Shown here in pieces: positions 19,757 to 63,869 of a stretch of DNA of 64,000 bases. Position numbers and translations under genes: made by a program. Origin of the DNA: Ectocarpus siliculosus. Its lineage: Eukaryota > Sar > Phaeophyceae > Ectocarpales > Ectocarpaceae. The notes beneath the pieces are model-generated. The model was given only the letters and a program-made list of their open reading frames with translations. It made no database searches and was not told where the DNA came from. Location: contig FN649734.1 in the NCBI GenBank assembly GCA_000310025.1, forward strand, positions 3,188,465-3,252,464, read 5' to 3'. The number at the start of each line of letters is the position of its first letter. Positions within the stretch are counted from its first letter, which is position 1.

Positions 19757-20800
19757 AAGGAGCGGTCCGCGCCCCCTTCTGCAAGGAGTGAGACCACTTC
19801 TTATACTAGGTCTGTAGTTCCTGAGATTTGGGTTCGTAGTGAGGCCGGCAGGACATTCCAACCTTCTTCTATTATTCGCCGAAAAACTGGGATTTCAAAT
19901 CGCAGATACCCCGGAATCGCATTGCCAGTTGTGAAAGAAAAACAAGAGAACAAGAACTCGAGAACTACATCCAGAGCAAGCTTGTGACTATGAATACTAG
20001 ATAGACTACAAGTATTCAGGGATTGCTATACGCGTGTGAACCTCGCAATAACCGCGAGAGGCCCCGAACAACAGTGCTCTGTCGAGCACCCCAAACAATG
20101 TCATGCGTATATACACTATACAAAATATGTGAAAAAAAACTACTCAACCCCCTCCGTCCACTCCACACATCACAAGGTTGACTCGGTACGTCCAAGCGCT
20201 TGACTACTATTCTGTTGTGGAGGAACAAGAAACCAATAATAGGGAAGGGAGCAACGTCCGGTCTCCTACTGTAGCTTGGTACTCACAGTTATTTGTTGTT
20301 TGATCTCTTGTTGTGGGCTGCTTAGCTTAGACCAGGGCCGCTCAGCGCTCACCCGGAAAGTGCGGGAGCGGGGCTTATATTATTATGCAGACGTCTCCAA
20401 TACCCCACAACGACGCCAAATAGCCGTACCCAACGAAAATTCAACGCATCCATTGTTGTATGCAACATGCAGTCCCACATCCACCACGACTCCGTCGGAC
20501 CTATTTTCGTGGTCTCCAAAGTGCCGCAGGTGCCCCGTTCTTTGCGTTCGGTGCAGTCAGAACTCAGTCGAACAACGGGGGGCATCAACAACAATGACGA
20601 CACGTCACACGAGACGCACACCCCCTCACCAACCAACCTACCTTTTTGTTGAGCGCAGCCACCTCAGCAACTCTCGGTGGTGAGTGTTGGGGTTGGTGCT
20701 AGCTACTGCTGTGATTAGAGTGTTGGCTGCTGTATGTTCACCACCCTTCATGAGGGGAAGAGGTTTCACGCCGGTTTTTCGTGTCCAGGTGTATATACAG
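19757..20800. other. Mostly unassigned; possible upstream exon of gene B
   Basis: A + frame from ATG 20276 begins with a hydrophobic segment (MVLTVICCLISCCGLL) and reaches a good GTGAGT donor near 20682. Only one of the three frames there would give the phase (1) needed by the first called exon of B, so the link is not asserted. Confidence 0.25.
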
Positions 20801-21125
20801 CCGGTCGCCCCGGTGGTCTAGTTGGTATCCTCGAAACCTTCTAGAGGTCAGGTGAGGGGTTCGAATCCCGGCGTGAGCGAGCTTTTCTTGCAAAGTGAGT
20901 TTTTCTCTCGCTTCCGCTCCTGGCCTAGTGGATAGCGCTAGTTCGTGTGTACAGAGAGACAGCGAGGGAAGAGAGTGCTGAACTCTTCTCGCCTTAAAAA
21001 ATCGAAGGCAAAGTACCGCAGAAGGGGAGGGGTAGTGAGGGGCTCCTCTGTGTGACCACGGGTTGGAGTAAACGGCACTAGTGCTGTGAGCGCTGATTTG
21101 AAGTGAAGCCAAAAAAATAAATAAA
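20801..21125 (+). mobile_element. tRNA-derived SINE, copy 2
   Basis: The best-preserved copy. The A box lies in GGTGGTCTAGTTGG and a perfect B box in GGTTCGAATCCC, followed by the family body and an A-rich tail (CCAAAAAAATAAATAAAA). It lies 318 bp upstream of the first called exon of gene B. Confidence 0.85.
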
Positions 21126-24400: not shown

Positions 24401-27400
24401 TTTGCGTTCGGATCCTTCTGCTGTGGGCAAGAGTCCATCTCCTTTTAACTTTTTCTCGTTCCTTAATCGTTTTATATATTTCCGCTTTACTTACCTATCT
24501 TTTTCCTCGGTGATTGACCTGTTTTGATACTTCTGACCGTTTTGACAAACCACCAGGTTACACAACACAACCTTAACACAACCTTGTACGTTTCTTAATG
24601 GGTTTCTTATTTGTTTGCGGCTGTCGCNNNNNNNNNNNNNNNNNNNNNNNNNNNNNNNNNNNNNNNNNNNNNNNNNNNNNNNNNNNNNNNNNNNNNNNNN
24701 NNNNNNNNNNNNNNNNNNNNNNNNNNNATTTTCTCCTTTCTTGCTAAGATTACAACAACCCCAAAAACTTGTTCAAGTCGTCAATAGAGGCAGTAAGGAG
24801 TGCAAACAAACCCGTACACATAGCAGAGAGCATGTGATGGTCGGCGACGTGTGGGAGTATAAACTTTCCGCAAGAGTAGCACAGCCCGCGGCGGGGCTCC
24901 GGCGCGAGGGCCTACAGCTGGGGTGGGACCAATTCTGACAGAAAAGTGGGGCATAATACACTGGACACGCTCCCCCAGCTATCCCACTTGTTTTTCATAT
25001 CTTGGGGGCATCGTATATGCCTGTTTCTTATCGGGATATTTTTGTTATTGGTCTCGATTGACGTGTGTTTCTTAGCCCTTTTTTCTTGTTTTTCGTGACA
25101 AATTGCGCCTCTGTTTCTTAACGAAATCTTGCATGACTGCAGGCCGCGCTCTGTATGTTGCGGTGGTGCGTAGGGGAATTGTGATCTCGTACACCGATAT
25201 TATATGTCCGAACTTGATTAGTCGCCTGCAATGCCCGATTGATGCTCGGTTCGGGCAATTTTTTACCAAGAACATTGCGCGTCCGGCGCAATGCGTTGAC
25301 AAACGACACGCCTCGCAACACGGTATTCCGCGGTACGACTACTCTCTTTAGATAGCTAAGGGATGATTGACTGCCTCCGAGTGCGGGGTAGCGTTGGCCG
25401 TGAAAAATAATGGGTTGCGAACTGTGAGGTTTATCATGCCCTAGTTTCTTAGCCATCAATACCACCAGTCCCCACACGATACGCCTTAAATGGTACGCAA
25501 TGGTTCTACGTGGGGACTGGGAAAGAAGAAGCTTGAGGATGCGGTGATGGGTCCAGAGAGGTGCGGAGATCGAATCTCTCCGAGGTGTCCCGTAATTTTT
25601 TTTGCTTTTCGTCTCTGGTACACCGTTCTGGTGTTGTCAGGCTCGTAGGCTAAGGCGTCCGTTTCTTTGCACGCAAATTAGCGTAGTTATTGTATGGATG
25701 AGCCGGTATTCATGATCCAATAGAGCATTCCACGAAAATCGGTAGATATAACCCCTCTCGGCGTGATTTACTTGGGCCTCTTGCGGGGTATTCCCCGATG
25801 AATGTTTCACGGAATGGACAACCAACCCTAGAAGGTTTGAATAGTGTTGACTTGCCGATGGTTCGCCTCGAGCGTTAAGTTCTTCGCGCTGGCAGGCAGG
25901 ATAGAAACAAATTACTTCGTGCATGCAGCAAACCGAACCGTGTCTTCGATGACGCCAAATAACTGGGGTTTTCCTAGCAGAGGGCCTTATGGTAACCATC
26001 GTGTCTCGCAGAAGGGCTCACACCTAGCCAGGCCAAGGAGAAGCCAATCAAACTAGCGGGCAGTGTCCTCCGTCCTGCCCAAGTTCAAATGTGTTACCTC
26101 GAATACTGGTCTTCTTTCATGCAATACACCCAAGTTTCTTCACCCAGCTTTCCGCGCGTGAACTGATCGGGTGAGGGATTGGGCTTTTTAGTTCCACGTT
26201 GCCTGAAGATGTTTTACAGTGGCCATGTGCCTGTAGACGTACACGGCACCAACGTCTGCATACGCCGCAGTGTAAAATTTAACGGCAACATTGCTTGTAG
26301 CTTCATCTGCCTGCTAAAATTGGGCTCACCACGGAAACGATGTGCAGAAAAGCGCTTGGGGTTTTATTCCTTCGGAACTGACACACGTTGATCTCTACGA
26401 AACCCACAGGAAGATCATGGATCTGTCGGCATGGATCCGCGTCGGTGGACCAGACGGCACGGCAGCAGCAGCGGTACTCGTACGGGATCAAGAGCTGTCA
26501 GATACAGGTCGTGTTCCGAAGAAATTGGGCACCACAGACCGCGAACGACGCGCGGTGGAGGGCGCCAAATCGTGGTGGGACGTCGACCGCGGAGACGGTG
26601 GAGATGATAGCACGAAGAAAACGGCGAGAGGAGGTAACCTCTCGCCCCTCACGGTGACACCACCACAACCACCACCTCCTCCCCCCCCTCCCCCTCTTTC
26701 TCCTCCCCCTCCTCTGTCTCCTGTTCGGCGATGGTCCGACGCCGACGTCGTACGCGTCGCCAGCACCGCGCTGATGGGGGACCTGAAACTGTCGCCGCTC
26801 ACGGTCCAGGCGCCGCCAAACAACCGGCATCGTCGACGATGTGAGCCGTACACCGCCAAACCGCCAGTCGTCGAGGTACACGACAACTCAGTCGTTTCTC
26901 CAGCCGGTAGCAGCAGCAGTAGCGACAGCATCGGCGGCGAGGATCCGAACGTTATGAGAAGGCGTCCTTGGGGAGAAGACGACTGGTTGGCAGCGGACTT
27001 ATCGGGCGGTGTCGGAGGCGGAGGGGGTAAAGTCCCGGCGCCACCGTGCGGGCCAGGCCTCGGCGCAAGTGAGACAGCACCGGCGGCAGCATCGGCGACT
27101 GCCGTAAGCAACAAGGAACAACGGGAGAAGCACTCGTCACGAAGAGCATCGAAACTACCTGTTGACAATGTTTCGATCGAGTCGTTACGTGAGGTAAGGC
27201 GATGCACTCCGACCAAAAATAATAGCATTAACAGTTGTGCTGGTCGTTGAAAAGTGGATAAATATGTCCGACTCTTCCAGACGACACCGTGGGCTTGATA
27301 GTGAGGGAGAGGGCGTACGATCGATAAAAAAACGAGGTTTTCCATACCTCCCTCAGGGCCTGGCGCTCGAATTTGTTAACCTGACCGTACCGTAACGGTT

Positions 27401-34829: not shown

Positions 34830-34882
34830 GGGTTAGGGTTAGGGTTAGAGCTAGGGTTAGGGTTAGGGTTAGGGTTAGGGTT
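34830..34882 (+). repeat. Interstitial telomere-like TTAGGG array
   Basis: About nine TTAGGG units, one of them changed to AGAGC. It lies 1.05 kb upstream of the signal-peptide exon of the peptidase gene. The window continues normally on both sides, so it is interstitial. Confidence 0.9.
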
Positions 34883-35930: not shown

Positions 35931-38900
35931 ATGGTCATGGCGCGGCTCGCGTGGATTGGCGCGACGGTCCTCGCGGCTACGGCGACCGCGGAGGAACCTC
36001 AACGGCGCTGGTACCCCAACGAGATCGTCCATCTACCCGGGCACACGATCACAGAGAAGGTGAGCGGATTACAGGATCGACCATGGAAATTTTGACGTGC
36101 TGGTGATCGCCAGCTGGGCTTGGAGCGTGCTAGCATGTCGGGCTCGCTGCGACCAAGCACGTGTTTCTGCCTCAGGAGCTCTTGGCGTCTCCCAGCGTGT
36201 CTGTTTTTGAAAACCTTGGGTCTTTGCCTTGTGGCACGCCCCCAACCTAAAAGAGTGCCGGTTCGCCCTCAAGTGTTCCCTCCTCATCCTTTTTTTATTG
36301 ATAATTTTGCATATTTGTACCACTCAGCAGTACATGCATCGGAGACAGCATATGCCATTGTTCCTTGAAGTCTCTCTGATGCATTGATGCTGGTGACCCT
36401 CTCTGTCGGAACTGCTCGGGGCTCAACATGCGGGTGACATTTATGCTGTGCCCTGGTTGTGAACGACCAGCAGACTAGCTTCAAAAACTCTGGTCTTCAG
36501 GAATAATAAAACTCTGGTCTGCATTCGCGCTTGATTTTGATCACGAAAAACGGCGGTGGACAAACCTTGAAAAGATTGAACGCACCTTGTTGTCTGTGTC
36601 TTTTTGGCAATTCACACGTACACCCGATGGCAGCTTCTCCCTGCCCTTTCCGTGACGGGCATGGTTCCGCGATCGTGGAGCACTCGATCAATACAGGCAG
36701 CAGCAGTGTCTATGCGTTTGAGTATGCTCAATTTCGGGCCCAAAAGTCGGGGTTGGCCTATTCAGATTTCAGAGTGCTGTGGAGCAGCAGTTGCATCAGA
36801 TCGGGTATTTGACAATCCAGCAAGCTGTCAATAGATACTGCGCCGTGTCCCCTGTAAAGATTATATTTTACAATACACGACACGACGAAGGGATTCTTCC
36901 CCGATATTTTGTCGTTGACCCAGTAGAGAACTACGGGGAATGTCGTATTGTAAACTGTAAGTTACCTATACAGATGTTTTTGTACTTAGCACCAGCTGGC
37001 ATCACTGATATAAATCATCAGTGTACAGACTTAAAAAGACTCGAAATAAGTCCAGTATTTATCCAGCCGGTTTTCCTCCACTCACTGAGAAGACTCTACC
37101 ACATCCCGTTCGACTGCTGCTGTGGGCATATCTCGAATGGGTACTCTTTCTCTGTGTGTGTTTATTATTCCTGAAGTATATACGTACTCTGTATGCACAG
37201 TCTGCAGCGCGTTCCTACACACACAGCGACAACGAAGAGTGATCCGCACGAGTTACCCAGACGTTCAGCACGATGCCGATTTCCGTGAAAAGCGCTGCCT
37301 ACAAAATGCATTTTAATAACGAATTCCCGCTATTTTGTACCATGTAAAGAAACCTTCGTCATTGTGACGTTTTCTTTTTTTTTTTGTCTTCACTTCAAAT
37401 CTCACGGCACTAGTGCGGTTTATTTAGCTCACGGCACTAGTGCCGTTTACTCCAACCCGTGGTCACACAGAAGGGCCCCTCTCTACCCTCCCCACCTGCG
37501 GTACTTTGCCTTCGATTTTTAATGCGAGAAGAGTTTGGCACTCTCTTCCCTCTGTGTACACACGAACTAGCGCTATCCACTAGGCCAGGAGCGGAAGCGA
37601 GAGAAAAACTCACTTTGCAAGAAAAGCTCGCCTACGCCGGGATTCGAACCCCTGACCTGACCTCTAGAAGGTTTCGAGGTTACCAACTTGACCACCGGGG
37701 CGACCGGCTGTGTGCATGCTGCTTGTAAATTGTTGCCCGATCCCCCTGGCAGTCGCTGCCCACCTTTGTGTGTGATCTATTTCTTATTGCTCCATCAAGG
37801 GAAGCCATAAAAATGCCGGTCTCCACCGTTCATCTCTGCCTTCCTGCTTGATGTGGCAGGTCTCAAACAGCAGTGATGCTCACTCCTAGGTATGAGTATT
37901 TTGGTCATGTCCAATGTCCAAATTCCCGCAGAGAAAATGCACTACCAAAAGAAACAGGAACGGCACATTACCAATTGCATCTATTGTGTGCGGTCGAGTA
38001 CGCATATGCATAGAAGAGATGAGCTTGTTGAGATAATTCCCAGAAATTGCGCTTTTACCTCTGCCGCGGCGGCATTGACTCTTCTCTGAGGGAACACGCT
38101 TCTGGGCCCGCCGTGATGAAACTCTACCTGCCACGTATGGTAGTATATCTACATACAACGCATTTACATTTCGTCACAAGCCAAAATAAGACGGAACCTA
38201 CCCACCGTGGCGCCAGACACCCCCCCCCCCTCCGAGGAGTAGACTACTACAACCTCTTGCCACGTACCTCTTCCCTTTTCGCGGCGGGTACGGTGTTTTT
38301 TTCCTGGAGTCGTCGGAGCGAGATGGAATCTTCTTCATGGCAGCTGCTGTACGTTGCTCCGACTGCTGTCTCAGACGAACTTTGTCCGGTAGCGCCAGCA
38401 GCGGGCCGTTCGGGGCGGCTACCTGCTCTGAGATACGTACCACATTGTGTGCAAACACGGTAGAGCAGTACCATGTTGCAGCTGTGCGTGATCAGCGTCC
38501 CGCCGGCACTCATATACAATAGAGCTTTTTCCTCTGTTTTTTTGCTGCGCGCGAGTTGCTGTACGCCCGTGTATCACACGCCTGATATCCCCGCTTCTTG
38601 TCCGTTACGACAAGAGCGCTCCTCTGCAGTGTATCGCGCTACAGCAGTATGTATAAATACAACCTTTGGTGTATTTTCTCGTCACGGTATTCTACTTCGG
38701 CTTTTTCGCCGAGAGAGCGTGCGCCGAAACCGTCGCGATCCCCGCCGAGGGTAGAACGAGTGCTGCTCGATCAGGTGGCGAGAGAGATGCATCGGGGACT
38801 ATGGAAGGGCCTCATACGATCACTATGCCAGTCAAGAACACAGGCACACCTCTAGTCATAATTATCGGTCAAAGCCCCAAAGTCTCCACTCGCTCTCCCC

Positions 38901-41900
38901 GCTTGATATTTTCCCCTCACCCACCGTTTCAGGTTTCCATTTTTTTTGCTGTGGTTTCGACGCCAGGGACATGTTGTCGTTTGAAACTCGTCCTTGTTGC
39001 ACGAAGCGCTTCGAACCCTGTACTTGCTGGCGGGGGATTGAACCCCCCTGCCCTCCATTCTTTGTAGAAGAAAGTTTGTTTGCATGCCATCAGACATTCG
39101 AGCGCACGTTTTATTCCTGAGGACGTAAACCCCACAAATAAGGGTTTTCATATCTACGGTATGGCATGATTTTGTCTCTGGGGGCGTTGTTGTTCCTCTA
39201 GGCTCCGCAGGCAAGGAAGGATGCGTTGAAAACCTCCGCGCAAAATCGTCTCTTGGCAAGCCTGTATGCAGCAAGGGTGTTGCCTCGTATCGAATTGTCT
39301 TGGGCGTCGTCCGCGCTTGACTGTTTTTGTTTTTGTTTTTGACCGCCGAGTGCGAACAACACGACGCGCCTGCCCGCCACTACCCCCGACCATCCCGGCG
39401 GACGCCCTCAGTGCGCAACGCCTGTGGCGGGCAAACCCCGATGTTTTTCCTCCGCCCGACCTTTGCAGGAGCGCGCGAGAAAGAGCTGTTGGCCCCGACA
39501 ACTGCAGCCGTACACGTCTCGTCGAGTCGTATTACTAGAAGTAAAAGATTCCTCGGCTTGCGTCATGATGACTCATGAACCCCCCCCCCCCCCCCTTTTT
39601 TGTTGTTCCTTGCGAGGTCAGGTCACGTCTCCGCTGCCCCACACGTACTTGGACCCTAGCGACCTGCCCCGGTTCTTCTCGTGGACCAATGTCGGAGGTC
39701 GATCGTACGTGACCAAGAACCTGAATCAGCACATTCCCCAGTACTGCGGGTCCTGGTGAGAGAAGAGAGAACCGATCATCAAAAAATGTTTGGTCGCTCA
39801 ACAACTGTGCTACAGCAGAAATGATATTATTGCGGATTGGATACCACGCTGCATACATGTGGTCAAATTCCACGCTTTGTGAAAGTGTTGGTCGCTCAAC
39901 TGCAGCAGGAAGAAATATATGGTCAGAAATACCGACATACTGATGTGGTCGATTTCCTGCCGCAGCTATTTAGATAGATAGCGCCATCGCCCGGTTCGAC
40001 ATGAACGTGGCGCGAATGGCACAGCGACGTCGTTGCGATCCTCGGCCCACGCTGTGTTGGTACCTCGGGCTCTCTGTGAGAACCGGCGATGGCGGTGCTG
40101 TCGGGGTCCGCCCGTCGCCGCCAATCGCCGGTTTTCACAGAGCGCCCCGAGGGCCCGAAGAGATGTGGCTACATAGGGCCGCGCGATGACGATGGGGTAA
40201 CGAGAGCGCCTGCGCGCGGCCGACTTTTGTCGATAACCGGGATGGTGCCATCCATCCAGCGAAAAGCTGCTGCTGCTGCTGCAGCGGCTGGAAGTCCTGT
40301 ATTACCACATGCTGTGAATTGTGACGCCTAGGAAAACGAAACCAGGAATGGAAATAGATGACGTGGAATACCACAAGAGACAAGCGACGTGAAGAGCACT
40401 GCAGCAGCAACGAACCACCACCGCAGTCGCATCCTTGAACGCACGGTGGCGGTGGTTTGTGTTGCTGGCGTAGCGGATGTCACGCCGTCAAGTGTTGTTA
40501 TTTCCTGGTTATTATTTTTGTGGGTGTCATCACTGCCTTGGAATTTGGGTACTTTTAGACTTTTTATTAAATAGTGATCCCTCCTCAGAATAGGCTCGTG
40601 AGAGCACAGCATTGTCATGAAGGGGTGCTGCAAGATGAAAATGGAAGCAGGCAGCACGGACCAACTGCCAGCTGCGGTGTGACTCAACAGCTCACACGGG
40701 TGACGTGCTTTTTGCTCGGAACAGCCGAGGGAACCTCATCGAGCCAAGAGTTGCAATCCTGTGTTTGGTTTTTACAGCAGTCTTGTTTTGTGGTTTTCCC
40801 TTTTTCTTCGCGACTGTTGTCCACTCCCTTTGACGTTTTTTTTTTTTTTGACAAGCCGGTCAGGAGTGACGCAAAAGGCAGGTAGACGCTCGGAGTCGTC
40901 TTCTTCGCCTCTGCGCTGTTCCCTGTCTGAGTGTTGACCTACATGCCTGTGCTGAGAAACTTGGCTTTTATTTCATGCTGGCGTTTGTCATCAAATGTTG
41001 CAACAAAAAAAAAGAGACTGCATCTCGTTCGCGTGCATTCCACTTGGCGCTGGTTCGCGCTGGCTTTTACCGTTTTACCATCAATGTTAACCAACAAAAA
41101 AAATGGATCGTACCTCATTTGTGTACCACTTGGCGTTGATTTCGCACCGGCTTCAGTCATGGGCACAACACAAAAAGGATCGTTGCACCTCATTCGCGTT
41201 GATTCCACGCGTGCGCCGGAGCCCCCTTGAGCACCACCGGGAGCGAACAGAGCCTGAGAGTGTCGAATGTATGCGCTTACATACGATGTTCAATGCCTCC
41301 GGGCATTCCTCCCGTTGCGCTGCTCTCCCCCTCGTGATTTTGGGCCGACTGAACCCGACAACAGCTGGGCCCACGGAGCGCTGAGCAGTCTTGCCGACCG
41401 CATCAAGATCATGCGCGATGGACGCGGCGCTGACATCAACCTCTCTGTCCAGGTGCGCGGCGTTATCCCACTGAAATACATACCGTTTCGGCGTCTTTTT
41501 GCGTGGTTTTTGTCCCCACCACCCCCCCTGCCTCCCGCCTGGTGACGTGGTATTCAGCTTGGTCCGGTGAAAACCCGGCGTACTCCGTCCCGGCTTTTGC
41601 GAGGTCTAGACCAGGGCTGCACTACTATGATTGCAATCCCCGCGCGCGCGTGCCCAACATCGTCCACCCTCTACCCTCTTTTTTCCGTGTTGCTGGTCTT
41701 GGGGCATTGTTTTATTTTTGCGGAAACGGCGTCAGTCACGCAACAGGGGCCGTTCCTCTGTTGTCCAGGAGTTTGGTGGCCGATGTCGTGGGTGTGGGTT
41801 GGGGACACATGGGGGTGTCTTCTGTTTCTGCTCCAATTTTGTTTTGCTCTTTTTTCTGAGTCTTGGGTACGCGTGATGTTTCTCACCTCTCTCTGGAATG

Positions 41901-44900
41901 TTTTTTGTTCTTGTCGCAGGCAATTTCTCGCTTTCTCTCGCGTCAGATTTTCAGCACCCACGCGTGCTTCGGACATGCCGCCATAGCGAGTCGACTGTAC
42001 AAGTAGTATGTACTCAAGTGTGGCAATCCACATACCGTGTGCCACGCTACTCAAAATACCCCCCCCCCCCACGAAACATGAGTATGAGTACACCCCCCCC
42101 CACGAAACAATCCCCCCCTCACCCTTCGGCACAACGTATTACACCCGGCGATATTGCTGTTGCGGCTCACAAGGCACAAACGTTTTTGCATCACCCAAGA
42201 TGCCACACACCAAACAACATCCCCGGTTCATATTTTTGGACGCATCCCCAAGTTTTTTTTCGGGTGTGTGGAGGATTATGGTGGGTATAGACGCATGTGC
42301 ACATTTGCCGTTTGGTCAACTGCTTCGGGCGCTCGTTGCCTCCCTGTAGGAGATGAACACGCCCTCACCCCACTCCCACCCCGCCCGCGAGCCTTGCGTG
42401 TGGTTGCGGTGAGGCTAATCGCAAGCGCTTGTTTAGGTGGTCCCGCTTGGTCCCATTGAGTTGTCCCGGCTCGTGGTGCTTAGTTTTCTCAACCAAACAA
42501 AGGATAAAACCGTGCTTCAAATTGTAGTTTCAGACGGGAATTGTTCCATCGTGTTGAACGATCTTCTGCGGTCCACATCCCCGACAATTATATAACTCCC
42601 TGCGTCCCCCCGTCCCCCGCCTACTGCTGCTGCTGCTTCTTAAGGTCATCCTCAACTGCGCCACCGAACTGGCCGGCTCTTGCCACGGTGGCTCCCACAC
42701 GGGCACCTACGAGTACGCGTCGAACAACCCCGTCCCCTTCGACACGTGCCAGCAGTACCAGGCCTCCGACAACACGTGCGACGCGATTGGCAAGTGCAAG
42801 ACGTGCTGGGTAAGTGAGGTCTCGACACATAAAATGGAGCACAACGCGCACCGTCTTTTCGTGCGGAGAGGGGGAATGTGGACGCGATGCGATGAACCAA
42901 CCGGGTTGCTTTTCTCTTCTTTTCTTTTCTCGTTGTTGTTTGGCTGAATCTGTGCCGGGGGCAACAGGCGCCAAGTCAGCATTCCTCTTCGATACCGTGT
43001 ACCGATACAGTGGATAATTATTTTCTGTCGTCGTGTTTCAATTGCGTGTGCATTGTCACATGCCACACCAGTCGACCCTTGGCGCAACGGGCGACCATGA
43101 TTTCATTTTCCGCGAAAAGTTCGTTTCGCAAGTCGATGATCATCATGTTTTGTAACGCTTGAGTACATTTTGGCCCGACCCGTGTTCCTCTCCGGACCCC
43201 TCGTCACAACGGGTAGGAAGGCTTGCTGTCCCTCGCGAATGCCCTGGCGTGCCCTATGCGGCTCTTTCTACGCAAAAGAGGTTCTCCCTTGCTTGCTTCG
43301 AATTCAACAGGACCCCTCGCCAACTTTTATTTTTCAACCGGCCCGCCACTTGGCCGATTCCCCACCCCCCCGGCGTAATACTCACGCTGTTTCTCGCTCA
43401 GAAGAGCGGGGGCAAAAGGGTTGCATCTGCAGTGCGCGTGGCTTCGGGGACCGTTTTTTTGTTGTTGTAGATTTGAACTCTACAAATCCATCTCTTTCAC
43501 ACAAGATTTGGAGTCCGTGATAAGATTAGGAATGAATTGATGGGCGTTGCAGTATTGTATTGTATTGTGAAGAAAAGTTGTTTCCATTCTGTCGGGGATG
43601 CGTGCGCATGCTCTGAGGGTGGTCCGCAGAACGCTGACGCCAAGATACGACGCCGTTTGTGAACACCCGAGGACAAGCAACTTTTCGAAACCGTCGCGCG
43701 TCGAGGGTGCGTGGTGGGCAACGAACGTTGATTTGGAAAGATTCCAACACGACGCACTAAAACTACATACTGTAGCACCGTTATGAACAACAAACGACAT
43801 GTAATTTTTTATTGTGTGTGATTTTGACGCAGAACTTCGACGAGGAGTGCGCGGCGGTCGAGAGCTTCCCCAACGCCACCGTCGCCGAGTACGGGACGGT
43901 CTCCGGGGAGGCGGACATCATGGCGGAGGTGTTCGCGAGGGGCCCCGTGGCGTGCGAGATCGACGCGTCCCCTCTCCGCGAGTACACGGTGAGAGCGGGC
44001 TGGCTTGTTCCTCCGCCTTTCGCCTGTACTGCCTCTCTCTCTCTCTCTCTCTGTCGCTCTCCGTCTCTGTCTCTGTCTCTGCCTCTTTCTCCGTCTCCCC
44101 CTCGCGGTAGAGGTGTGGTGTTTTTTTTTTGTTGCAGAAGGGGGTGCGGCTACGACGGCGGCTACGACGGCGGCGGCGTCAGTCAGTCTGCTGGCGTAGC
44201 CAGCCTTGTGTTGTACCACATCGGCGGTCGCGAGTGCTTACTGTCACACCCCCTTCTACTCGCGACGTCCGTCCTGCTTGTGACGATCTTCCTTCTCGTT
44301 TCGATTGCCAACAAAAACGTTAGGGAGGCGTGATCGACATTCCGGATGTCTCGGCGGAGACCGACCATATCGTGGCCATTGCCGGTTGGGGCGAGACCAG
44401 GGAAGGAGACAAGTGAGAGGAACAATAATGCCTTGACAGCAACCAGTGGCTGTTGTTTCTGCTGGTGTGTTTTGATACGTGTCGCCTTCCCGTTTGGTTG
44501 GCGGAATCTGTCAAGAGCTGGGTTTTTTTTCGTAGGTGTTCGCCGAGCACGCCTTCGTTGGCTTCGTGCTACCGCCGCCAAATCACTCTTCGCCCAGTGG
44601 TGTCTTTCGTGCGTGTGGTGCGGGGGATCTACGATGATGGGTGTGAGGGCTGCCTGTGCTGCTCACCGCTGCCCGCCTCTCCTCGGACGAAAAAAAAACA
44701 CAGTAACCTTGTCGTTTTTTTTTGTTTTTTCGACTAAGTAAACATGTTGGATAAACCATGCAATCGGGGAAGTTTTTTGGGTTCAGGGAATTGGATCTGC
44801 GTACCCCCTCCCTGTTCTGTTTCCTCAAAAAACAACAAGTATCATTACCGCGAAGGCGGTCCAACAAAAAGAAAACGACACTCACACACGCACCCGTCTC

Positions 44901-47900
44901 CGCCTCAGGTTCTGGATCGTCCGCAACTCGTGGGGAGAGTACTGGGGCGAGGGCGGCTGGTTCCGCCTCAAGCGCGGGGAGAACCAGCTCCTGCTAGAGT
45001 CCAACTGCGCTTGGGCAGTGCCCGGGTCATGGACGGAGCTCCAGCCCCCCCACCACCACCACGACCACCCCGATGACCCCGAGCGTCCCGACGGCCCGTT
45101 CGGTACGAAGACCATTTTTTTTTTTTTCACGGAAATGGGTATGGTGCAGTTTTTGGTTGGGGGAGGAGCCTCGGCGGCAGGCAACACAGCGATTCACAGG
45201 CATCCCTCGCGGTTTTTGAGGTGAACGTGTACATTGGTTGCATGCGTGTGCGGACGAGCTCGTCTCTGCCCGTCGTTGGTGCCAAGTGATAGGGCGCCTG
45301 GCGTCAAACGCGCCACCCGTCGCTTGTTTTACCCCGCCAAGATCAAGATGACAGCCTCGCACACACGGATATCTATCTCATATACTCATATATTGTACAC
45401 CACACGCGTCGGTCGTCTCACGTCGCGGGTCTTCACGCCGGTCCCCCCATCCGCCTGTCCATCGCGCGCAGGACCTAACGGCCCGTTTAGGCCCAACGGA
45501 CCCCCGGGACCCCCCGGACAAGATGGACCCTCGGGACCCCCGGGCCAATACCGACCCCAGGGACCCCCCGGCCAAGGTGGACCCCCAGGACCCCCCGGCC
45601 AAAACGGACCTCCGGGCCAGGACGGACCCCCTGGCCAAAATGGACCCCCCGGCCAAGGTGGACCCCCGGGACCCCCCGGCCAAAACGGACCTCCGGGCCA
45701 GGACGGACCCCCTGGCCAAGGTGGACCCCCGGGACCCCGCGGCCAAAATGGACCCCCCGGCCAAGGTGGACCCCCGGGACCCCCCGGCCAAAACGGACCT
45801 CCGGGCCAGGATGGACCCCCTGGCCAAGGTGGACCCCCGGGACCCCGCGGCCAAAATGGACCCCCCGGCCAAGGTGGACCTCCGGGACCCCCCGGCCAAA
45901 ACGGACCTCCGGGCCAGGATGGACCCCCTGGCCAAGGTGGACCCCCGGGACCCCGCGGCCAAAATGGACCCCCCGGCCAAAACGGACCTCCGGGCCAGAA
46001 TGACCCCCCTGGTCAAAATGGACCCCCGGGACCCCGCGGCCAAAATGGACCTCCGGGCCAGGACGGACCCCCTGGCCAAGGTGGACCCCCGGGACCCCGC
46101 GGCCAAAATGGACCCCCCGGCCAAGGTGGACCCCCGGGACCCCCCGGCCAAAACGGACCTCCGGGCCAGGATGGACCCCCTGGCCAAGGTGGACCCCCGG
46201 GACCCCGCGGCCAAAATGGACCCCCCGGCCAAAACGGACCTCCGGGCCAGGATGGCCCCCCTGGCCAAAATGGACCCCCGGGACCCCGCGGCCAAAATGG
46301 ACCTCCGGGCCAGGATGGACACCCTGGCCAAGGTGGACCCCCGGGACCCCGCGGCCAAAATGGACCTCCGGGCCAGGATGGACCCCCTGGCCAAGGTGGA
46401 CCCCCGGGACCCCCCGGCCAAAACGGACCTCCGGGCCAGAATGGCCCCCCTGGCCAAAATGGACCCCCGGGACCCCGCGGCCAAAATGGACCCCCCGGCC
46501 AAGGTGGACCCCCGGGACCCCCCGGCCAAAACGGACCTCCGGGCCAGAATGGCCCCCCTGGCCAAAATGGACCCCCGGGTCCCCGCGGCCAAAATGGACC
46601 CCCCGGACAACATGGATCCGAGGGCCCTGACGGTCCGCCGCCAGGTAACGAACCTCAATCGAATATGTAGCTCTTAACAGTCTTTCGAAAGGCATTACTA
46701 GCCACGATAGGCTAGGTCTTTGGGCAATAGTGTGATTGACCAATCCAAACACTTTTGTGAAATGAGGGGCCTCTGGTTCTCTGGCACGACCCTGTCAACC
46801 TCTGTACCGGGGACGGTTAAAGCGAATACCTCGGATAACCACCACCACTGGCTACCCTCGGCACACACTTCGTTGCATCTCAAATCAGACCCTAGTGCAA
46901 TGTCTGGACAGACTATTTGCTACGGTACATGGGAGCAAGATGGCAATAGAATTTACAGGCAAGCATTGCCTGCGTAGCAGCAACACAAGCGTGATGTTTG
47001 CAACCTCGCTCTCCCTCCCTGTCGCTCTCCGAAGGTCAACCCGAATGAATCTGGCATGTGATATGATACTGACTGAAACGCCAAAGCCACCGCCGCAGAC
47101 CGCTTATGCAGCTCTTGCGCAACCACACCGAGGTACCAGCTACAACCAACCAACACACCCCGGTTTTTCTGTTGCACGCCCACCTCGTTTGCCAGGACCC
47201 CCGGGCCCCAACAACGATCCTTCGAACCCCTCCGAAGATCCCGACCGGCCTGGACCCCGTCCCCCCGGTGAGTTGAAGAGCAGTGAGCTGTGACTGGAAA
47301 AAAGAAAGTGTATGCAAAAGCGTGCGTCTGCGTAACTTCGCGCAAACGAAAAGTCGTATGTTCGGCACCTCGCCCTCCCTCTCTTTTTCTCCAAGACTAA
47401 ACCCAATACATGTTGCATCGGGTTCTTGTCCCCCCGTCAACTTTGACCTGAAGGAAACGAAAAAGCCACCGCCGCAGACCGCCAGCTCTTCCGCAACCGC
47501 GGCAGCCAACCACTTTTAAACCAACCTACACACCCCGTTTTTCTTGTGCACGCCTGCCTCCATCGCCAGGACCGCCGGGGCCTCGCCCGCCTCCGCCCCC
47601 CCCTCCCCACGGCTCCCCCGCTCCCACCCCCGGTGGCACGGAAGAGGAGGAAGTGGATTTCAGCGTCGGTCTCATGAACTTGGGAATGAAGTCTCTGCGC
47701 GGCGAGAAGCCGGGCAGGAAGCTTCGCGCACAGGGTGAAGACAGGGCTGGAGGTCGCGACGATCCCTCTGGACCCCCGGGCCCACCTGGCCCACGCCCCC
47801 CCGGTGAGTTCAAGAGAAGGAAGGCCTGAGATATAAAAGTTGACTAGAAAAAAACCGTAGAAACGATGATGATGGGAATTTTGTCGTGAGGCACATTTCG

Positions 47901-49397
47901 GCTATACCCCTCGTCGTGTCGCAGCTCCTACTTGTTTTTTTTTTTGTTTTTTCCATCGCCGGATCCGTAGTGAAAATGAAGGCCACCGGGAGTGCTTTTT
48001 GCTTCTTGTGCTCGGGTCACTTTTTCCGTGCAATAGTGCATGCGTATCTAAAACAGAAGGGCAAAGTCGAGGTCTCCCGTTGCAAAATTTCACGTTGATG
48101 TCGCGCTGTTCAAAGAGCTGAAAGATCTTACCTCTATTGCGCGAGCAACAAAAGAACAATTGCAGGCGATAGGTCGTCTACGTAGCCTCGCATTTACCGA
48201 AAGCCTGATGTTTGCAAGTTCGCACTCCCTCTCCGATAATCAACCCGAACTCTGGCTTACTTCGCAGCTGATCTCCGCTCCCTTGAACATCGACCCGACT
48301 GAAAAAGCAAACGCCACCGCCACAGAACGCTCTAGCGTTTCACCCTCCACTCACCATTTCACGAGTCGCTTCAATAGTCAACCCAAATGCTGGCATAATT
48401 TCCAGCTGATCTTCGCCCTCGTCCGTACTGACCTGACTGAAATTGCCACCGCCACCGCCAATTTTTTCCCAATCGACCACTTACAATTAACCGATCGTCA
48501 CCTTGTTCTTTTTTCCGTCTCGCCTCGCCTCCGCAGGCCCCCCGGGGCCTCGCCCCCCCCCGCNNNNNNNNNNNNNNNNNNNNNNNNNNNNNNNNNNNNN
48601 NNNNNNNNNNNNNNNNNNNNNNNNCCCCCCCCTCCCCACGGCCTTTCCGCCCCGACCCCGGCCGGCACGGAGGATGAGTCCTTCATCTTGCATGCCGCGG
48701 ACCACGGCGGTAGCGTCCCGCGCACTTACGACATGAAGAAGGATCCTTCTGACGACCCTTCCGATCCGCCGCGCCCCCCGCCCCCCCCTCCCGGTCCTCA
48801 CCCCGGTAAGCGAGCGCTACGGTAGGACATAAGTTAGACCAATATTTGGGAAGAGCGGGGAGAACGTGTATGCAGTGCTAAGCGCATACTCCACACCTTT
48901 TTTTTGTGTTTTGGACGACATAGGTTGCTTGACTGGAGTCGACTCGCGTTGATTGTCGACCGGACGACACCCGGATGGGAGACGCATGCCTCTCCCCTTG
49001 TGTCTGCTGTACGTGTCGCCCAACATATCACACGCCATGGACCGATTTGTCGAAGGTCGAATTTTCCACGACGTAAAGGGCGCAAAAATATCAAACGATA
49101 AGGTCGTTTCGTTTTATCCGGGGATTTTTTTTTCGCTCTCACTGAGGGGGGTGTTGGCGTGCAAGGGAAAAATAATTCAGATCCGAGGACGCCCTTGTAC
49201 TTTCATCACCAAACACCCGTCCCCCTGCCCCTTTTCTGTGTCTCCCAGGGCCGCCCGGACCTGGACCCCACCCCCACCCTCCCGGCCCCCACCACGGCAC
49301 CCCCGCGCCGACCCCCGGTGGCACCGAGGAGGCTTCGGTCGTCGGTGAACCGATGAACTTGGGTGGAGATGTCCTCCGCCGTATGCGGCGAGGGTAG
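35931..49397 (+). CDS. CTSZ: Cathepsin Z/X-like cysteine peptidase fused to a collagen-like domain
   Basis: Thirteen exons in phase: 35931-36059, 39469-39540, 39622-39755, 41365-41452, 42645-42809, 43833-43988, 44324-44412, 44909-45102, 45472-46644, 47196-47267, 47570-47803, 48537-48805 (with gap) and 49249-49397 (TAG). About 970 residues. Residues 1-20 are a signal peptide ([21 protein letters not shown] 35931 or 35937). A short propeptide has the lone Cys typical of cathepsin Z (KSCWPR). The peptidase C1A domain follows from about residue 82: [15 protein letters not shown] with the HIP mini-loop and catalytic Cys112, [14 protein letters not shown] with His263, and [15 protein letters not shown] with Asn284. 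After a His/Asp hinge, residues 343-734 are Gly-X-Y repeats. Residues 735 to the end are Pro-rich modules (APTPGGTEE). Cathepsin Z is a lysosomal or secreted carboxypeptidase. The collagen fusion is unusual and suggests tethering in wall or matrix (inference). The peptidase identity is near certain. Confidence 0.93.
37000..37172 (+). repeat. Hairpin-bearing dispersed repeat, copy 3 (in intron 1)
   Basis: Homologous to 21897-22058 in the opposite orientation. It ends in the CCCGTTCGA / TCGAATGGG hairpin near 37107-37143. Confidence 0.7.
37371..37708 (-). mobile_element. tRNA-derived SINE, copy 3 (in intron 1 of the peptidase gene)
   Basis: Reverse-complement copy. The poly-T start (37371-37385) is the inverse of the A tail. 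The B box appears as GGGATTCGAACCCC, and the A-box half ends at GACCACCGGGGCGACCGG. The element is slightly longer than copy 2 because CTCACGGCACTAGTGC is duplicated near its 3' end. Confidence 0.85.
40063..40151. ncRNA. 89-nt intronic hairpin, possible small-RNA precursor
   Basis: The left arm (40063-40095, CCTCGGGCTCTCTGTGAGAA onward) and right arm (40119-40151) are inverse complements over about 33 bp, with one 2-base bulge and a few mismatches, around a loop of about 23 bases. It lies in intron 3 of the peptidase gene. Size and pairing suit a miRNA-type foldback or a tiny foldback transposon; sequence alone cannot decide. Confidence 0.4.
40975..41220. repeat. Intronic degenerate tandem repeat, three units
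   Basis: Three imperfect units of about 80-95 bp share an A-run, TCGT(G/T)...CTC(G/A)TT, and CCACTTGGCG(C/T)TG(A/G)TTCGC-like sequence. They lie in intron 3 of the peptidase gene. Confidence 0.6.
41559..41640 (+). repeat. 90-bp dispersed block, diverged copy (in intron 4)
   Basis: Starts GGTCCGGTGAAAACCCGGCG, continues CTCCGTCCCGGCTTT and GAGGTC, and ends in a C-run. It matches 57391-57497 and the reverse complement of 63181-63280. Confidence 0.7.
44034..44110 (+). repeat. CT-rich microsatellite in intron 6
   Basis: TCTC and TCTGTC runs within intron 6 (43989-44323) of the peptidase gene. Confidence 0.85.
45472..46644 (+). repeat. Collagen-like exon: 9-bp codon repeat with 108-bp higher-order unit
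   Basis: One 1173-bp exon (exon 9 of the peptidase gene) of GGA-CCN-CCN type triplets gives about 130 Gly-X-Y units, mostly GPP, GQN, GQD, GQG, GPR. Glycine is replaced three times: Arg in RPN and RPQ near the start, Asp in DPP in the middle. Units recur with a 108-bp period (CAAAACGGACCTCCGGGCCA near 45681, 45789 and 45897). The antisense frames of over 400 codons are artefacts of this repeat. Confidence 0.95.
48564..48624. other. Assembly gap inside exon 12 (61 N)
   Basis: A run of 61 N in a C-rich Pro-coding tract. Frame before and after the gap differs, which is uninformative because the true gap length is unknown. Confidence 1.
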
Positions 49398-52604: not shown

Positions 52605-54633
52605 ATGTACCCGAATCTCGTGTATTGGTTTTGTTCGATAGGTTCGCTCAGAGAGAGGTATTTGTTGCCAGGCGCATTTGGGAAGCAAGAGGATGGAACA
52701 GCTGACTGGGTCAATAAGCCGTTCCCAAAACCAATTTCAAACAATAATAACAATGAACTCACGCCACTCCCCCTTCACCATGAACCTCCCAATGTTTCAC
52801 GATCGATCGATGCAGATAATGTGCTTCACCTCAGCCCTTTGCTGTGGACCGTCGTTGCCTGGCTCTTGATTTGGTGCTCCAACACCAAGACCGTCAAGGC
52901 CTCCGAATGCCTGGTAGGATGCACGCTGTTAGGGCTGGATCCTTTCGACGCCGACATGCTGGTGGAGTGGGATGATCGCGGGAAATGCGACGACGGCGCC
53001 GCGTGCGAAGTGAATGCTGGGAACATCGAAGCTGCCTGGGCTGGCTGCGGCAGTGCCGATGCGTCCAGATGCCTATGGGCCGCCGGGTCTGGGGAGGAGG
53101 GCTCCACCGACTGCACGTGCTCCGTGTGTGGCGCCCCGGACACCTCTGCGTCTTCGTATATGAGCGACTACCCCACGTGGACTAGAGTTGCCTGCTACAT
53201 TGCGGGCATGGAAGCCATGGGATATGATGCAAGCGTTTGCGTCGCTGCGGTGGTCGACGATGGCGTCATGGCCTGCGTGGATGAACCGTACGAAGGACCC
53301 ACGTTCGAGCAGCTTAGCTGCCCTCCTACTTCACTCGTCCTCACTACGTCTAGTGATTGCTTGTTCGACGGATCCTTGAGGGAGGCAGAAGAAATGTTCG
53401 CAAGTATTGGGACCCCGGCGGATTTCGACCACGTCATCCATCGCCTAACTCGACGAGTTCAAGACGACGACGGCGGCGGCGACACATTCCCCGCAGATGG
53501 TGGTGAGCAATGCATGCGTGGAGATCCGGTGATGGTAGCATAACGTTACGGGGTGTTGCAACGAGGCTGTACTGTAATCAGTCGGCCCTTCACGATGCCC
53601 ACACCCTGTTTCCTTCCTCGTAACACCAACGAAGAAGACAGTGGCTGAGTTTCCTAGAATGTCCTCGTTCCCGTTTAAGGGGAAACTTTGCAGTAAATGA
53701 TACCAGGTTTTTGTCTCATTCCGTGCCACCAAGCGTTTAACAACAATTGACGTAGAACCTCTCCTCGAATGCTGATTGAGTTAAATGATTTGTAAGAGAA
53801 ACGGATCAGAAAATGTACAGAACAAATGTTGCAGCGGTAGTACTTTGTTGGGCTGTATTGCAAGGGAAAATGCTGAAAGCACGCCAGATTCCTCTGCAGC
53901 ATCTTTGCCAATGCCTTGCGATGCATGGCGATCTGATACTCGAGCACGTGTTGGGCTTCCAATTTCTCCGTGTCCTCTCTCATTCGTCCGAGGTGAAAAC
54001 ATAGTTCGAAGATAAAGTATGCCAAGTAGTGCACAATTTCCGGCAGAGTTGTGAACTACGTATGTTATTCGACACAGCTGCATAGACTATCTGCTTCGCA
54101 GACGACACCCAGCATCTTCAACAATTCGTTCTGCAATTTCGACTAGGGTTCAATGCTCTCTAAGTGAAGCGGGACAAACTTTTCGCTGAAATGGCAAGCC
54201 TGAACATTTATGTGCCCCGATGTCCTGAAGCGGCCCAGATGGTGCGGTTTGATTCGTTGTAAGCTGTGTGGAGTGGGGAGCGAGCTCGATGTCCTCCTAG
54301 CCAGCCGGACGTCATTTTGATATCAATTCTTGTACGCTCACGAACTCAAGGTTCCGTGCGGTTGGGTCTGATGAACGATTTCTCCGTGTAACCGAACGTG
54401 GTCGTTCTGCAGGTCGTACGGTGGATACGCCAGCCCCAACATCTAGGGAAGATACTGATGACGCCGGCGATGACAGTGAAGATATTCCGACATGGTGGAT
54501 AGTAGTTGGGTCTATTCTTGGGGCTGGGTTTGTCGGATGTTGTTGTAAGTATGGCTGTGGCGCCAGTTGTCAGATCTTCGACAACGAATGTTGCTGTTGC
54601 TGCAACAACAACAGCATCACCTGCGGTAGATGA
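52605..54633 (+). CDS. Cys-rich type I membrane protein, unrecognised family
   Basis: Two exons, 52605-53502 and 54413-54633, joined through a phase-1 intron of 910 bp (G|GTGAGC donor, TTCTGCAG acceptor). A hydrophobic signal-like helix (SPLLWTVVAWLLIW) is followed by a probable cleavage site before SECLVGC. The ectodomain of roughly 200 residues carries about 18 Cys, with ECLVGCTLLGLDPFDADML, DCTCSVCGAP and CVDEPYEGPTFEQLSC as landmarks. The second exon adds a Thr/Asp-rich stalk, one transmembrane helix (WWIVVGSILGAGFVG) and a very Cys-rich cytoplasmic tail with CCC and CCCCC runs, then TGA. The first in-frame ATG is 52605, but the signal begins about 80 residues later, so the true start may be in an unseen upstream exon. 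A decayed tandem paralogue lies at 58618. A surface role is inferred from topology only. Confidence 0.75.
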
Positions 54634-56881: not shown

Positions 56882-57013
56882 CCCCCCCCCCCACCGATAT
56901 TAGCCATCGGGGTCGGGCTTTCGTCGCTTGGCAACGACGTTGTAAAGCAAGCCGCCTCCCCGGTGTTTGGAATCGGGGTTGGGTTTTCGTCAGCGATGTT
57001 GCAAAGCAAGCCG
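56882..57013 (-). repeat. 64-bp minisatellite, two-unit copy
   Basis: On the reverse strand, two units of the repeat seen at 63279-63532: a G/C run, AACCCAACCCCGA, then GTCGTTGCCAAGCGACGA (the second unit is shortened) and TTTACAA. Its orientation relative to the 90-bp block is the same at both loci. Confidence 0.8.
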
Positions 57014-58617: not shown

Positions 58618-59278
58618 GCGGCCTGCAAAGAAGTGCTTGGCACCGCCGCCTTGTGGCTCTTGATTAGGTGCTTTAACACCAATATCGTCGACGCTTCCGA
58701 GTGCCTGGTAGGCTGCACGCTGTTAGGGCTGGGTCCTTTCGACACCGACATCCTGGTGGAGTGGGATGACCGTGGGCAACGCGTAAACAGCGTGGGGCGC
58801 GAAGTGAGTACAGGGGGCACCGCAACTACCTGGACAGGCTGTGACAGTGCTGACGCCTCCGGTTGCCTATGGGCCGCTACCTCTTCCGGAATGGATGACT
58901 CCAGCGACGGCACGTGCTCAGCATGTGGCACCAGGAGCACCTCCGGCGCTTTGTCGTACGTGAGTGACTACCCCACGTAGACTAGAATTTCTTGCAACCT
59001 TGGTACAGTAACATGGAAGCCGTGGGATACGATGCAAGCGTATGCGTCACGGGCCATGGTCGACGATGGCATGATGGTTTGCGTGGATGAACCGTACGAA
59101 GCACCCACGTTCGAGCAAGTGAGCTGCCCGGCTACGTCACTCGTCCTCACTAGCCATTGTGAGTCGGACGGATCTATCAGAAGAAGGGCAGAAGAGATGT
59201 TCGAAACCGTTGGGACTTTCGCGGGATCTGACGACGCCTCCGTTACTGGGGCCGACGATGACGCCTACGTCCAAGACG
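58618..59278 (+). pseudogene. Decayed tandem paralogue of the Cys-rich membrane protein
   Basis: Aligns along its length with exon 1 of the gene at 52605: LWLLIRCFNT for the signal helix, ECLVGCTLLGLGPFDTDIL, CLWAATSS, VSDYPT, then VCVDEPYEAPTFEQVSC, ending at the same G|GTGAGC donor. It carries a TAG at 58978-58980 where the intact copy has Trp. A 5-base excess follows, then a 1-base excess near 59055 that restores frame, and several ectodomain Cys are lost. A matching second exon is not certain (see 60489-60784). Either a host pseudogene or, less likely, a gene with a short intron over the damaged part. Confidence 0.75.
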
Positions 59279-62193: not shown

Positions 62194-63869
62194 GGCAACG
62201 ATGTGGCAGGCCCGTTTTTCGCCTCGCTCCTGCCGTTTTCGTTGGCCTCTGCATGCGGACGTCTCTTCCCCCGGCCGCCACCGCCGCTGCCGCCGCCGCC
62301 TCTTCCTCCCGCCGCCACTGCGGCTGCCACCCCAGGCCCATTCCCCCTTCTCCTTTCGGCCGCAGTCGTCGCTGACGGCCCACCCGTTTAGACTGCTTCG
62401 GCACTCGCAGCGACGCCAACAAGTGATGTTGACGTCCCGTTCGCCGCTGCTGCCGCTGCTGCTGCTGCTGCTGCGGCGGCGGCGGCGGCAGCGGCAACGG
62501 TTGAGGTCGGTGCGGAAGCAACAGTGGGAGGCAGGGCCGTAGACTGGGCCCCGGATCGACGGCCACCGTCGGAGCACCCACCACCACCGCCAACGCCGTT
62601 GTCATTATCATCAACATCGTTCCGGGGAAGCCATGCCAGCGGCTTGAGTCCTTCCACCCGCCTCACATTTCTCTTCAGGAACAGCGTAGGCCCGCTGTTG
62701 TCCGCCGCCTTCTTCTTCTTCTTCCCGTCGTCGCCGGCAGCCACGGCGGTAACCACCGCCGGCGCGTTCCCGTTCGCGCTTCCCTTTCCTCCTGCGGAGG
62801 CGGCGGCGGTGGCGGCCGCGGTTGGTCCGGCTTGACCGCCCCCACCCCGTTCCACTTGCGGCGGCGGCGGCGGTTGCTTGAGCAGAGCGCCATTCTCGCC
62901 GTCTCGCGAAGATGCCTCTCCGCGATGACGTTTGCGTGGAACCTTTGCTGGCCCCCCGCCCGTCCCCGGTTTTGATGCGTCTCCTGCGCCGAGAGCCGGT
63001 GCCGCCGCCGTAACGCCTCCGGCTACTACGTCCCCTCGGCGGCTGGAGGAAACAGCGGCACCGGCGGCGGCGGCGGCGGAATCAAGAGGCAGCTCTTGGG
63101 AGGTAGACGTCGCTCCGCCCGCCACGTCTCTTACGTTTTTCACGAAGGTGTCCAGGGAGGCTGTTTCGGCGGGCAATGGAGGGGGGTGGGCTACTCATAG
63201 TCGTGCATGCCGTAGGCGTCAGACCATTGACCTCGCATCCCTACAAAGCTGGGACGGAGCACGCCGGGTTCTCACCGAGGGGGGGCTTGTTTTACAACGT
63301 CGTTGCCAAGCGACGAAAACCCAACCCCGACGGCAAACACCGGGGGGGGCAGCTTATTTTACAATGTCGTTGCCAAGCGACGAAACCCAACCCCGACGGC
63401 AAACACCGGGGGGGGCAGCTTGTTTTACAATGTCGCTGCCAAGCGACGAAAACCCAACCCCGATGGCAAACACCGGGGGGGGCAGCCTTGTTTTACAATG
63501 TCGTTGCCAAGCGACGAAAAACCCAACCCCGAACCACGGGAGTGTGGTGTGGGGGAGGGGGATGGAGGGGGGCGGCGAAAGGGCGATGTTTCGGAGTGAA
63601 GGCGGGAGGGGAGGCAAGAAGCGTGAGTACCTCACCCAAGAGAAACGAAGCTGCGGCTACACACCACGCAAACCAATAACAGGACTGACTCACCAGGGTG
63701 CTCGAACCGGTACCGGAGCTGGAACCGCTCGTGGCAGTCGCAGGCGCAGGCGACGCAGAGGTGGCACTGTCGGCAAGACGGCTCCTTGCAGTCGCACTTG
63801 GACGCGGGGAACACCCCGTGGCTCCGCTGGGACCTCGACACACGCTCGCGCTGCTCCAGGGTCCTTCCG
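62194..63869 (-). CDS. Cys-cluster protein with Ala/Gly/Lys-rich region, unrecognised (5' partial)
   Basis: Minus-strand exons 63869-63694 and 63160-62194 join in phase 1 (CACCCTG|GTGAGT to AACAG|CC). Exon 1 encodes TLEQRERVSRSQRSHG and a dense cluster, CDCKEPSCRQCHLCVACACDC (Cys at spacing 1-4-2-2-2-1-1), likely to bind metal. Exon 2 encodes ASLDTFVKNVRDVAGG, then Ala/Ser/Gly-rich sequence with basic motifs (PRKRHRGE, KKKKKAA), TLFLKRNVRRVEGLKPLAWL and a long poly-Ala run. A TAA at 62390-62388 could be the true end. Yet the same frame stays Ala/Gly/Arg-rich for 64 more codons to a GTAAGC donor at 62193, so the stop may be a polymorphism, an error or a sign of decay. The basic motifs suggest a nuclear protein. 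Upstream exons probably lie beyond the window edge. Confidence 0.6.
63181..63280 (-). repeat. 90-bp dispersed block, minus copy
   Basis: Reverse complement of 57391-57497 with few differences. It lies in the intron of the minus-strand gene, directly next to the minisatellite. Confidence 0.8.
63279..63532 (+). repeat. 64-bp minisatellite, four units
   Basis: Units start near 63279, 63341, 63407 and 63473. Each holds a G-run, (T)TTTACAA(T/C)GTCG, TTGCCAAGCGACGAAAACCC, AACCCCGA and GGCAAACACC. It lies in the intron of the minus-strand gene. Confidence 0.95.

Follow-up and report, generated by a model that had tools for sequence, protein, structure and literature searches.

Does a cathepsin X/Z gene of a brown alga continue into a collagen-like rod, or do the two coding regions only lie close together? 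This question is raised by a 64,000-nucleotide stretch of Ectocarpus siliculosus DNA (assembly GCA_000310025.1, contig FN649734.1, forward-strand positions 3,188,465 to 3,252,464; hereafter the window), in which an earlier note, made from the letters alone, had proposed a secreted cathepsin Z peptidase fused to a collagen-like domain. When the region was rebuilt from raw sequence, a 12-exon gene model was obtained at 35931-49397 on the forward strand, with GT-AG introns and exons that join in phase. In the joined protein a signal peptide is followed by a cathepsin X/Z domain, a Gly-X-Y exon and four proline-rich tail exons. The best reading of this sequence is that the cathepsin X domain and the Gly-X-Y exon probably belong to one gene whose exons would be joined by splicing, and that the fusion is probably real at the gene level.

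The model begins with the start codon at 35931, upstream of which the same open frame has no Met, and ends with the stop at 49397. Exons 1-7 encode 318 residues, and the full product would comprise about 950 residues and have a mass of about 95 kDa (95.1 kDa computed with X residues standing in for the exon 11 gap), compared with computed masses of 59.4 kDa without exon 8 and 81.1 kDa without exons 11 and 12. A Pfam search of the joined protein returns both Peptidase_C1 (1.2e-41) and Collagen (1.9e-43) above the Pfam cut-offs. The proposed fusion is therefore upheld as an in-phase chain carrying both domains, and its tail exceeds the earlier description in both length and modularity. The introns are long, and the G+C content of the window is 0.53; the Ectocarpus genome is reported to have 54% GC and a mean intron of 740 bp (PMC6418280).

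All exons lie on the forward strand. Exon 1 (35931-36059), which ends in phase 0 at the donor AAG/GTGAGC, encodes the signal peptide and the start of the propeptide; as the earlier note claimed, its N-terminus is signal-peptide-like, with the most hydrophobic 11-residue stretch starting at residue 6 and the sequence ATATA-EE further on. Exon 2 (39622-39755) supplies the end of the propeptide, the HIP mini-loop and CGS, and aligns to procathepsin X (1deu). The cathepsin X alignment also covers exon 3 (41365-41452), which completes the codon of the catalytic Cys88 and runs into a helix, and exons 4 (42645-42809) and 5 (43833-43988), which encode catalytic domain. Exon 6 (44324-44412) carries the catalytic His239, and exon 7 (44909-45102) carries the catalytic Asn260, the end of the domain and a linker rich in His, Asp and Pro.

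The identity of the enzyme is well defined by comparison with solved structures, in which 174 sequences matched, the best 60 of the 174 were inspected, and closeness was judged by E-value and not by a tree. Procathepsin X (1deu; aligned to residues 43-275; E 2.9e-69) is by far the best match, followed by mature cathepsin X (1ef7; residues 58-275; E 1.1e-61); the best match outside cathepsin X is a cathepsin S, at E 1.9e-23. The product shares with cathepsin X/Z (EC 3.4.18.1) the HIP mini-loop at residues 80-82, in a region aligned gap-free to both structures, as well as CGSC at 85-88, the catalytic His, NSWG at 260-263 and all nine non-catalytic Cys of the aligned stretch. It differs in that the alignment stops at residue 275 of about 950, whereas the two PDB chains are 277 and 242 residues long.

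A complete papain-family domain with an HIP mini-loop had been predicted, and both are evident here. The catalytic residues had been numbered Cys112, His263 and Asn284; the same residues are present, but they fall at 88, 239 and 260 when exon 1 is joined straight to exon 2. Each of the earlier numbers is 24 higher, and thus an extra 72-bp exon is implied. This bears on one further feature: in cathepsin X/Z enzymes the active site is blocked by a Cys in the short propeptide, and the earlier note listed such a Cys. The simplest exon model differs from cathepsin X/Z in this respect, as the direct join has no Cys ahead of the active site. Intron 1 holds three open 72-bp candidate exons in phase 0 that contain a Cys, and the best of them by acceptor and donor together, at 39469-39540 (+), is perhaps the exon behind the earlier numbering. 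Its acceptor is good. Its donor (GAA/GTAAAA) matches only four of nine consensus bases and its G+C content at third codon positions (GC3) is 0.54, compared with 0.81 in exon 1 and 0.82 in exon 2. Because of the poor donor and low GC3 this exon was excluded from the model, and the propeptide Cys, being doubtful, is rejected as an established feature.

How firmly is the collagen-like exon tied to the cathepsin gene? Exon 7 ends in phase 1 within a Gly codon, and exon 8 (45472-46644), a 1173-bp exon of 391 codons' length that is symmetric (phase 1-1), resumes that codon, so the direct phase-matched step from 45102 into the Gly-X-Y exon is borne out. The end of exon 7 and the start of exon 8 together form one hexapeptide repeat that spans the junction. 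The 40 bases on the exon 7 side of the junction and the 40 on the exon 8 side have a 10-base word in common. In a test applied after the repeat had been spotted, 22 of 5000 shuffles of the bases gave a word at least this long; at the ten other adjacent exon pairs the shared word measures 4-9 bases.

The tail beyond exon 8 follows the same pattern. It consists of exon 9 (47196-47267; phase 1-1), a proline-rich module with repeats D7 and D8; exon 10 (47570-47803; phase 1-1), a module with MNLGMKSLR that is related to exons 11 and 12; exon 11 (48537-48805), a module interrupted at 48564-48624 by a 61-N gap whose true length is uncertain; and exon 12 (49249-49397), the last module, with APTPGGTEE and the stop. 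Each of the five tail junctions falls in phase 1 within a Gly codon; four can be read directly, and the fifth (exons 11/12) is read in the sole stop-free frame past the N gap. Exons 10, 11 and 12 share APTP.GTE and the residues after it, and the introns between the tail modules are partly related as well: intron 8 (46645-47195) matches intron 9 (47268-47569) at 75% over 132 bases by blastn (E 3e-18), and intron 10 (47804-48536) matches introns 8 and 9 at E 1e-5 and 0.006, respectively. The relatedness of intron 8 is also seen as repeats D4, D5, D8, D10 and D11. Because these exons and introns are in part duplicates, the tail was built by exon-plus-intron duplication within the same gene. Intron 7 showed no such relatedness to the introns of the tail. 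In-phase exon shuffling is known in brown algae from the leucine-rich repeat exons of ROCO genes (PMC11378527).

Exon 8 itself contains the long Gly-X-Y run expected of a collagen-like sequence, with Gly first in 127 of 130 triplets and the Collagen match given above. GPP is the most frequent triplet (59), followed by GQN (27), GQG (13), GQD (10) and GPR (10), and eleven further types occur once each. At the DNA level the exon is a tandem array of 15.1 copies of a 63-bp unit. The window contains 13 occurrences of the pattern GGNCCNCCNGGNCCNCG, of which 10 are in exon 8 and 3 in exons 10-11, and 100 dinucleotide shuffles produced none. An open frame is weak evidence of coding in such an array, because two of the three forward frames of exon 8 are free of stops, a point that the earlier note did not raise, and we rejected it as an argument.

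Differences among the repeat copies are more informative. In the predicted frame they amount to 1203 synonymous and 503 non-synonymous changes, and the ratio of non-synonymous to synonymous rates (dN/dS) is about 0.16, whereas the remaining two forward frames give 1.66 and 1.90. Because the compared copy pairs overlap, changes were also counted along a minimum spanning tree. With 9-base words, 16 of 29 changes fall at third positions (p = 0.013); with 18-base words, 22 of 40 (p = 0.004); and with 27-base words, 28 of 45 (p = 7e-5). Of the 116 Gly codons in the core of the exon, 115 are intact even though they vary among GGA, GGC and GGT, and all nine spacings between GPR blocks are multiples of 9. 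Given the third-position excess, the intact Gly codons and the GPR spacings, exon 8 has probably been kept as protein and not as a silent minisatellite.

Several observations weigh against this account, and each has to be set beside the explanation that it would favor. The fusion is predicted from genomic sequence, and some of its putative splice sites are unimpressive. By a rough matrix trained on only six introns, the donor of intron 8 (CAG/GTAACG) is weak, ranking 87th of 875 GT sites, and among 695 acceptors that of exon 8 is middling (rank 100), those of exons 9 and 12 rank 304 and 510, and those of exons 10 and 11 rank 39 and 43. Moreover, the printed length of exon 11 (269) breaks the frame unless its 61-N gap is mis-sized. 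The weak donor would suit an optional exon 8, such that most messages either skip it or end in intron 8 and the usual enzyme has another end or a proline-rich tail only. A join of exon 7 to exon 9 keeps the frame and yields an intact 559-residue protein, and an in-frame stop from the 24th base of intron 8 would give a 717-residue product. We nonetheless think this unlikely to be the usual state of the gene, as the coding constraint on exon 8 implies translation frequent enough for selection to act. An in-frame ATG at 45348, upstream of the rod in a frame open from 45225 to 46670, would permit a separate collagen gene, transcribed and translated independently, with a stop ending at 46670. This arrangement is very improbable: the stretch from the ATG to the exon has a GC3 of 0.61 and no hydrophobic signal by eye, the phase and the split Gly codon match exon 7, the repeat spans the junction, and exons 9-12 would require another 5' partner.

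Other difficulties concern what exon 8 encodes. Its GC3 is 0.53, compared with 0.86 in the catalytic exons, which would fit a recent tandem origin, and its antisense frames have dN/dS values of 1.13, 1.88 and 0.17, the lowest of which is on a par with that of the sense frame. Since dN/dS thus leaves one antisense frame possible, the strand is decided by the place of exon 8 in the gene. The tandem array, its two open forward frames and the assembly gap in exon 11 could together suggest a non-coding GC-rich minisatellite or an assembly artefact that is open by chance; with differences in excess at third positions, a dN/dS that separates the forward frames and nine of nine GPR spacings in multiples of 9, we give this explanation hardly any credence. 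An animal-type fibrillar collagen gene was also considered. The exons of metazoan fibrillar collagens begin with a whole Gly codon and these proteins have a C-propeptide, whereas exon 8 starts within a Gly codon (phase 1) and Pfam finds no C-propeptide-type domain in the first 820 residues, and so this candidate was rejected.

Whether the Gly-X-Y part forms a triple helix is less clear, and a truly fused but monomeric, extended and possibly glycosylated proline-rich stalk, in the style of plant-type wall glycoproteins, is a minority possibility that we take seriously. The Gly-X-Y run is interrupted at three triplets (RPN, RPQ and DPP), and the rod contains neither Lys nor Cys. Searched at E up to 1, Pfam gives no trimerisation or other extra domain in the first 820 residues. 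Gly in particular shows little sign of selection: the tree carries three non-synonymous changes at Gly, three at X and 11 at Y (synonymous changes 9, 4 and 15), with no clear deficit at Gly relative to X. Furthermore, Q, N and G are abundant at X and Y, and exons 9-12 are proline-rich with merely short Gly-X-Y pieces, which makes the tail overall resemble a stalk. Brown algae, for their part, are said to possess arabinogalactan-protein backbone motifs and no collagen (PMC8307928). Against this stand the retention of Gly at every third place throughout nearly the whole exon and the many GPP and GPR triplets, types that favor triple helices.

We lean toward the reading that a single gene gives rise to a cathepsin X, secreted or vacuolar, that continues into a Gly-X-Y rod and a proline-rich modular tail and that might be trimeric or anchored much as originally proposed. 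Splicing of exons 1-12 would yield a papain-family carboxypeptidase whose C-terminus is extended by the rod and the tail. In steps that are less certain, the prolines of the rod would be hydroxylated and three chains would wind into a triple helix of about 110 nm (390 residues at the triple-helix axial rise of 0.286 nm per residue), and the rod, together with tail motifs of the MNLG...LR type, would fix the resulting trimeric carboxypeptidase in the wall or matrix. Without hydroxylation and winding, an extended proline-rich stalk would take the place of the trimeric rod; either form would keep the enzyme off a surface or in the matrix. That the enzyme might be oligomeric or matrix-tethered, as the earlier note proposed, is a reasonable suggestion. 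No membrane anchor is seen, because the tail lacks Cys and its C-terminus is not strongly hydrophobic (best 15-residue mean 0.65). The proline-rich tail might also resist C-terminal trimming by the enzyme itself. Since exon 8 is symmetric, splicing could give forms with and without the rod. Collagen-tailed acetylcholinesterase offers a comparison, in that a collagen rod (ColQ) holds an enzyme in the matrix; there the collagen is a separate polypeptide, whereas here enzyme and rod would share one.

The origin of the rod can be imagined along the same lines. A phase-1 proline-rich exon of the tail array may have been amplified in tandem as a 63-bp unit to form the collagen-like domain. We put forward only tentatively the stronger version of this proposal, in which a collagen triple helix arose de novo through minisatellite growth of a symmetric proline-rich exon within a cathepsin X gene and produced a carboxypeptidase that is trimeric and anchored in the matrix, although collagen is said to be missing from this lineage. 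According to PMC8307928, brown algae are without the matrix components, collagen among them, that meet integrins in animals. If true, brown algae would have an extracellular, possibly multivalent peptidase with its own collagen-like rod, and a collagen-like domain would have arisen from duplicated proline-rich exons and tandem repetition independently of animals.

Do relatives share this architecture? Searches with the whole catalytic part gave 59 pattern matches in genome contigs and 2 in viral contigs, none of them confirmed, and none were found in phage records. With the exon 2-4 piece, six loci were confirmed among 129 stretches of genome contigs and none among eight in viral contigs, and with the exon 6-7 piece 13 of 21 were confirmed in viral contigs. 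Sixteen of the 19 related loci match the whole catalytic part by tblastn, and only one of these 16 (L001, at 7878-8876 of its contig) has the HIP loop. That contig is filed under a Verrucomicrobiaceae metagenome-assembled genome, and its cathepsin X coding frame is broken as if by short introns; the DNA resembles that of a eukaryote placed in the wrong bin. Thirteen residues past the aligned end the frame runs into a stop codon, directly preceded by EEACSWFHPFCSSLTQVGQPLS, and the locus holds no Gly-X-Y run, not even of four triplets. It is therefore one relative without the tail, with a missed splice being possible. Gly-X-Y frames at 18 of the 19 loci comprise 0-5 triplets. The remaining locus, on a viral contig, has a minus-strand Gly-X-Y frame of 107 triplets, and its C1-like peptidase match lies on the opposite strand.

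Whether the architecture is new, as the earlier note held, is less certain, because a long-tailed relative may already be present in databases. Ectocarpus siliculosus is credited with an 81.367-kDa cathepsin X (UniProt D8LCL2, cited in PMC3880103), and cathepsins are generally given as about 30 kDa (PMC10380794), so that this mass implies a long extension. As a brown-algal cathepsin X far above the usual size, D8LCL2 could be an orthologue, although its mass, the sole basis of comparison, equals none of the three versions computed here. The main text of the papain-family study (PMC10380794) lacks the word 'collagen', and no cathepsin-collagen fusion is described in open-access titles and abstract openings among the matches listed. 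Partial precedents exist. A cathepsin Z occurs in the extracellular skeletal organic matrix of red coral sclerites (PMC7853314), which is a parallel in location and not in the tail, as the portion of that source consulted mentions no collagen part. The phage hyaluronate lyase HylP combines an enzyme and (Gly-X-Y)10 in one polypeptide (PMC4585773), but its Gly-X-Y stretch is short and N-terminal and its enzyme is unrelated. Blastocystis, also a stramenopile, has secreted Gly-X-Y proteins (PMC5608401), for which the part of the report consulted names no enzyme domain. The Ectocarpus gene is likely to be real, and its putative product would be a novel form of a known enzyme.

NCBIfam gave no match, ARAGORN and Rfam gave none in the window, and a Pfam search of 10 further open frames in the window returned none at E 0.01. 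Three copies of a dispersed repeat, each about 300 bases long, lie at 10528-10835, 20797-21091 and 37427-37711, the last copy within intron 1 of the cathepsin gene; the copies are 79-92% alike, and the repeat holds GGTTCGAATCC, a tRNA-like box (minus strand, near 37640). Although ARAGORN found no tRNA there, the repeat is perhaps a tRNA-derived short interspersed element. About 1 kb upstream of the gene, an interstitial telomere-like array of 8.8 copies of GGGTTA occupies 34830-34882, and a second run of N lies at 24628-24727. Two pairs of related open frames without Pfam matches were also noted: a Cys-rich frame in two copies (52860-53413 and 58654-59216; 77% alike over 569 bases), and an inverted pair with a common VASTALMGDL motif (7723-8063 and 26712-27019; 70% over 345 bases). 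Finally, a 66-bp tandem array of 3.9 copies (93% matches) spans 63273-63532 and has an inverted relative at 56888-57012.

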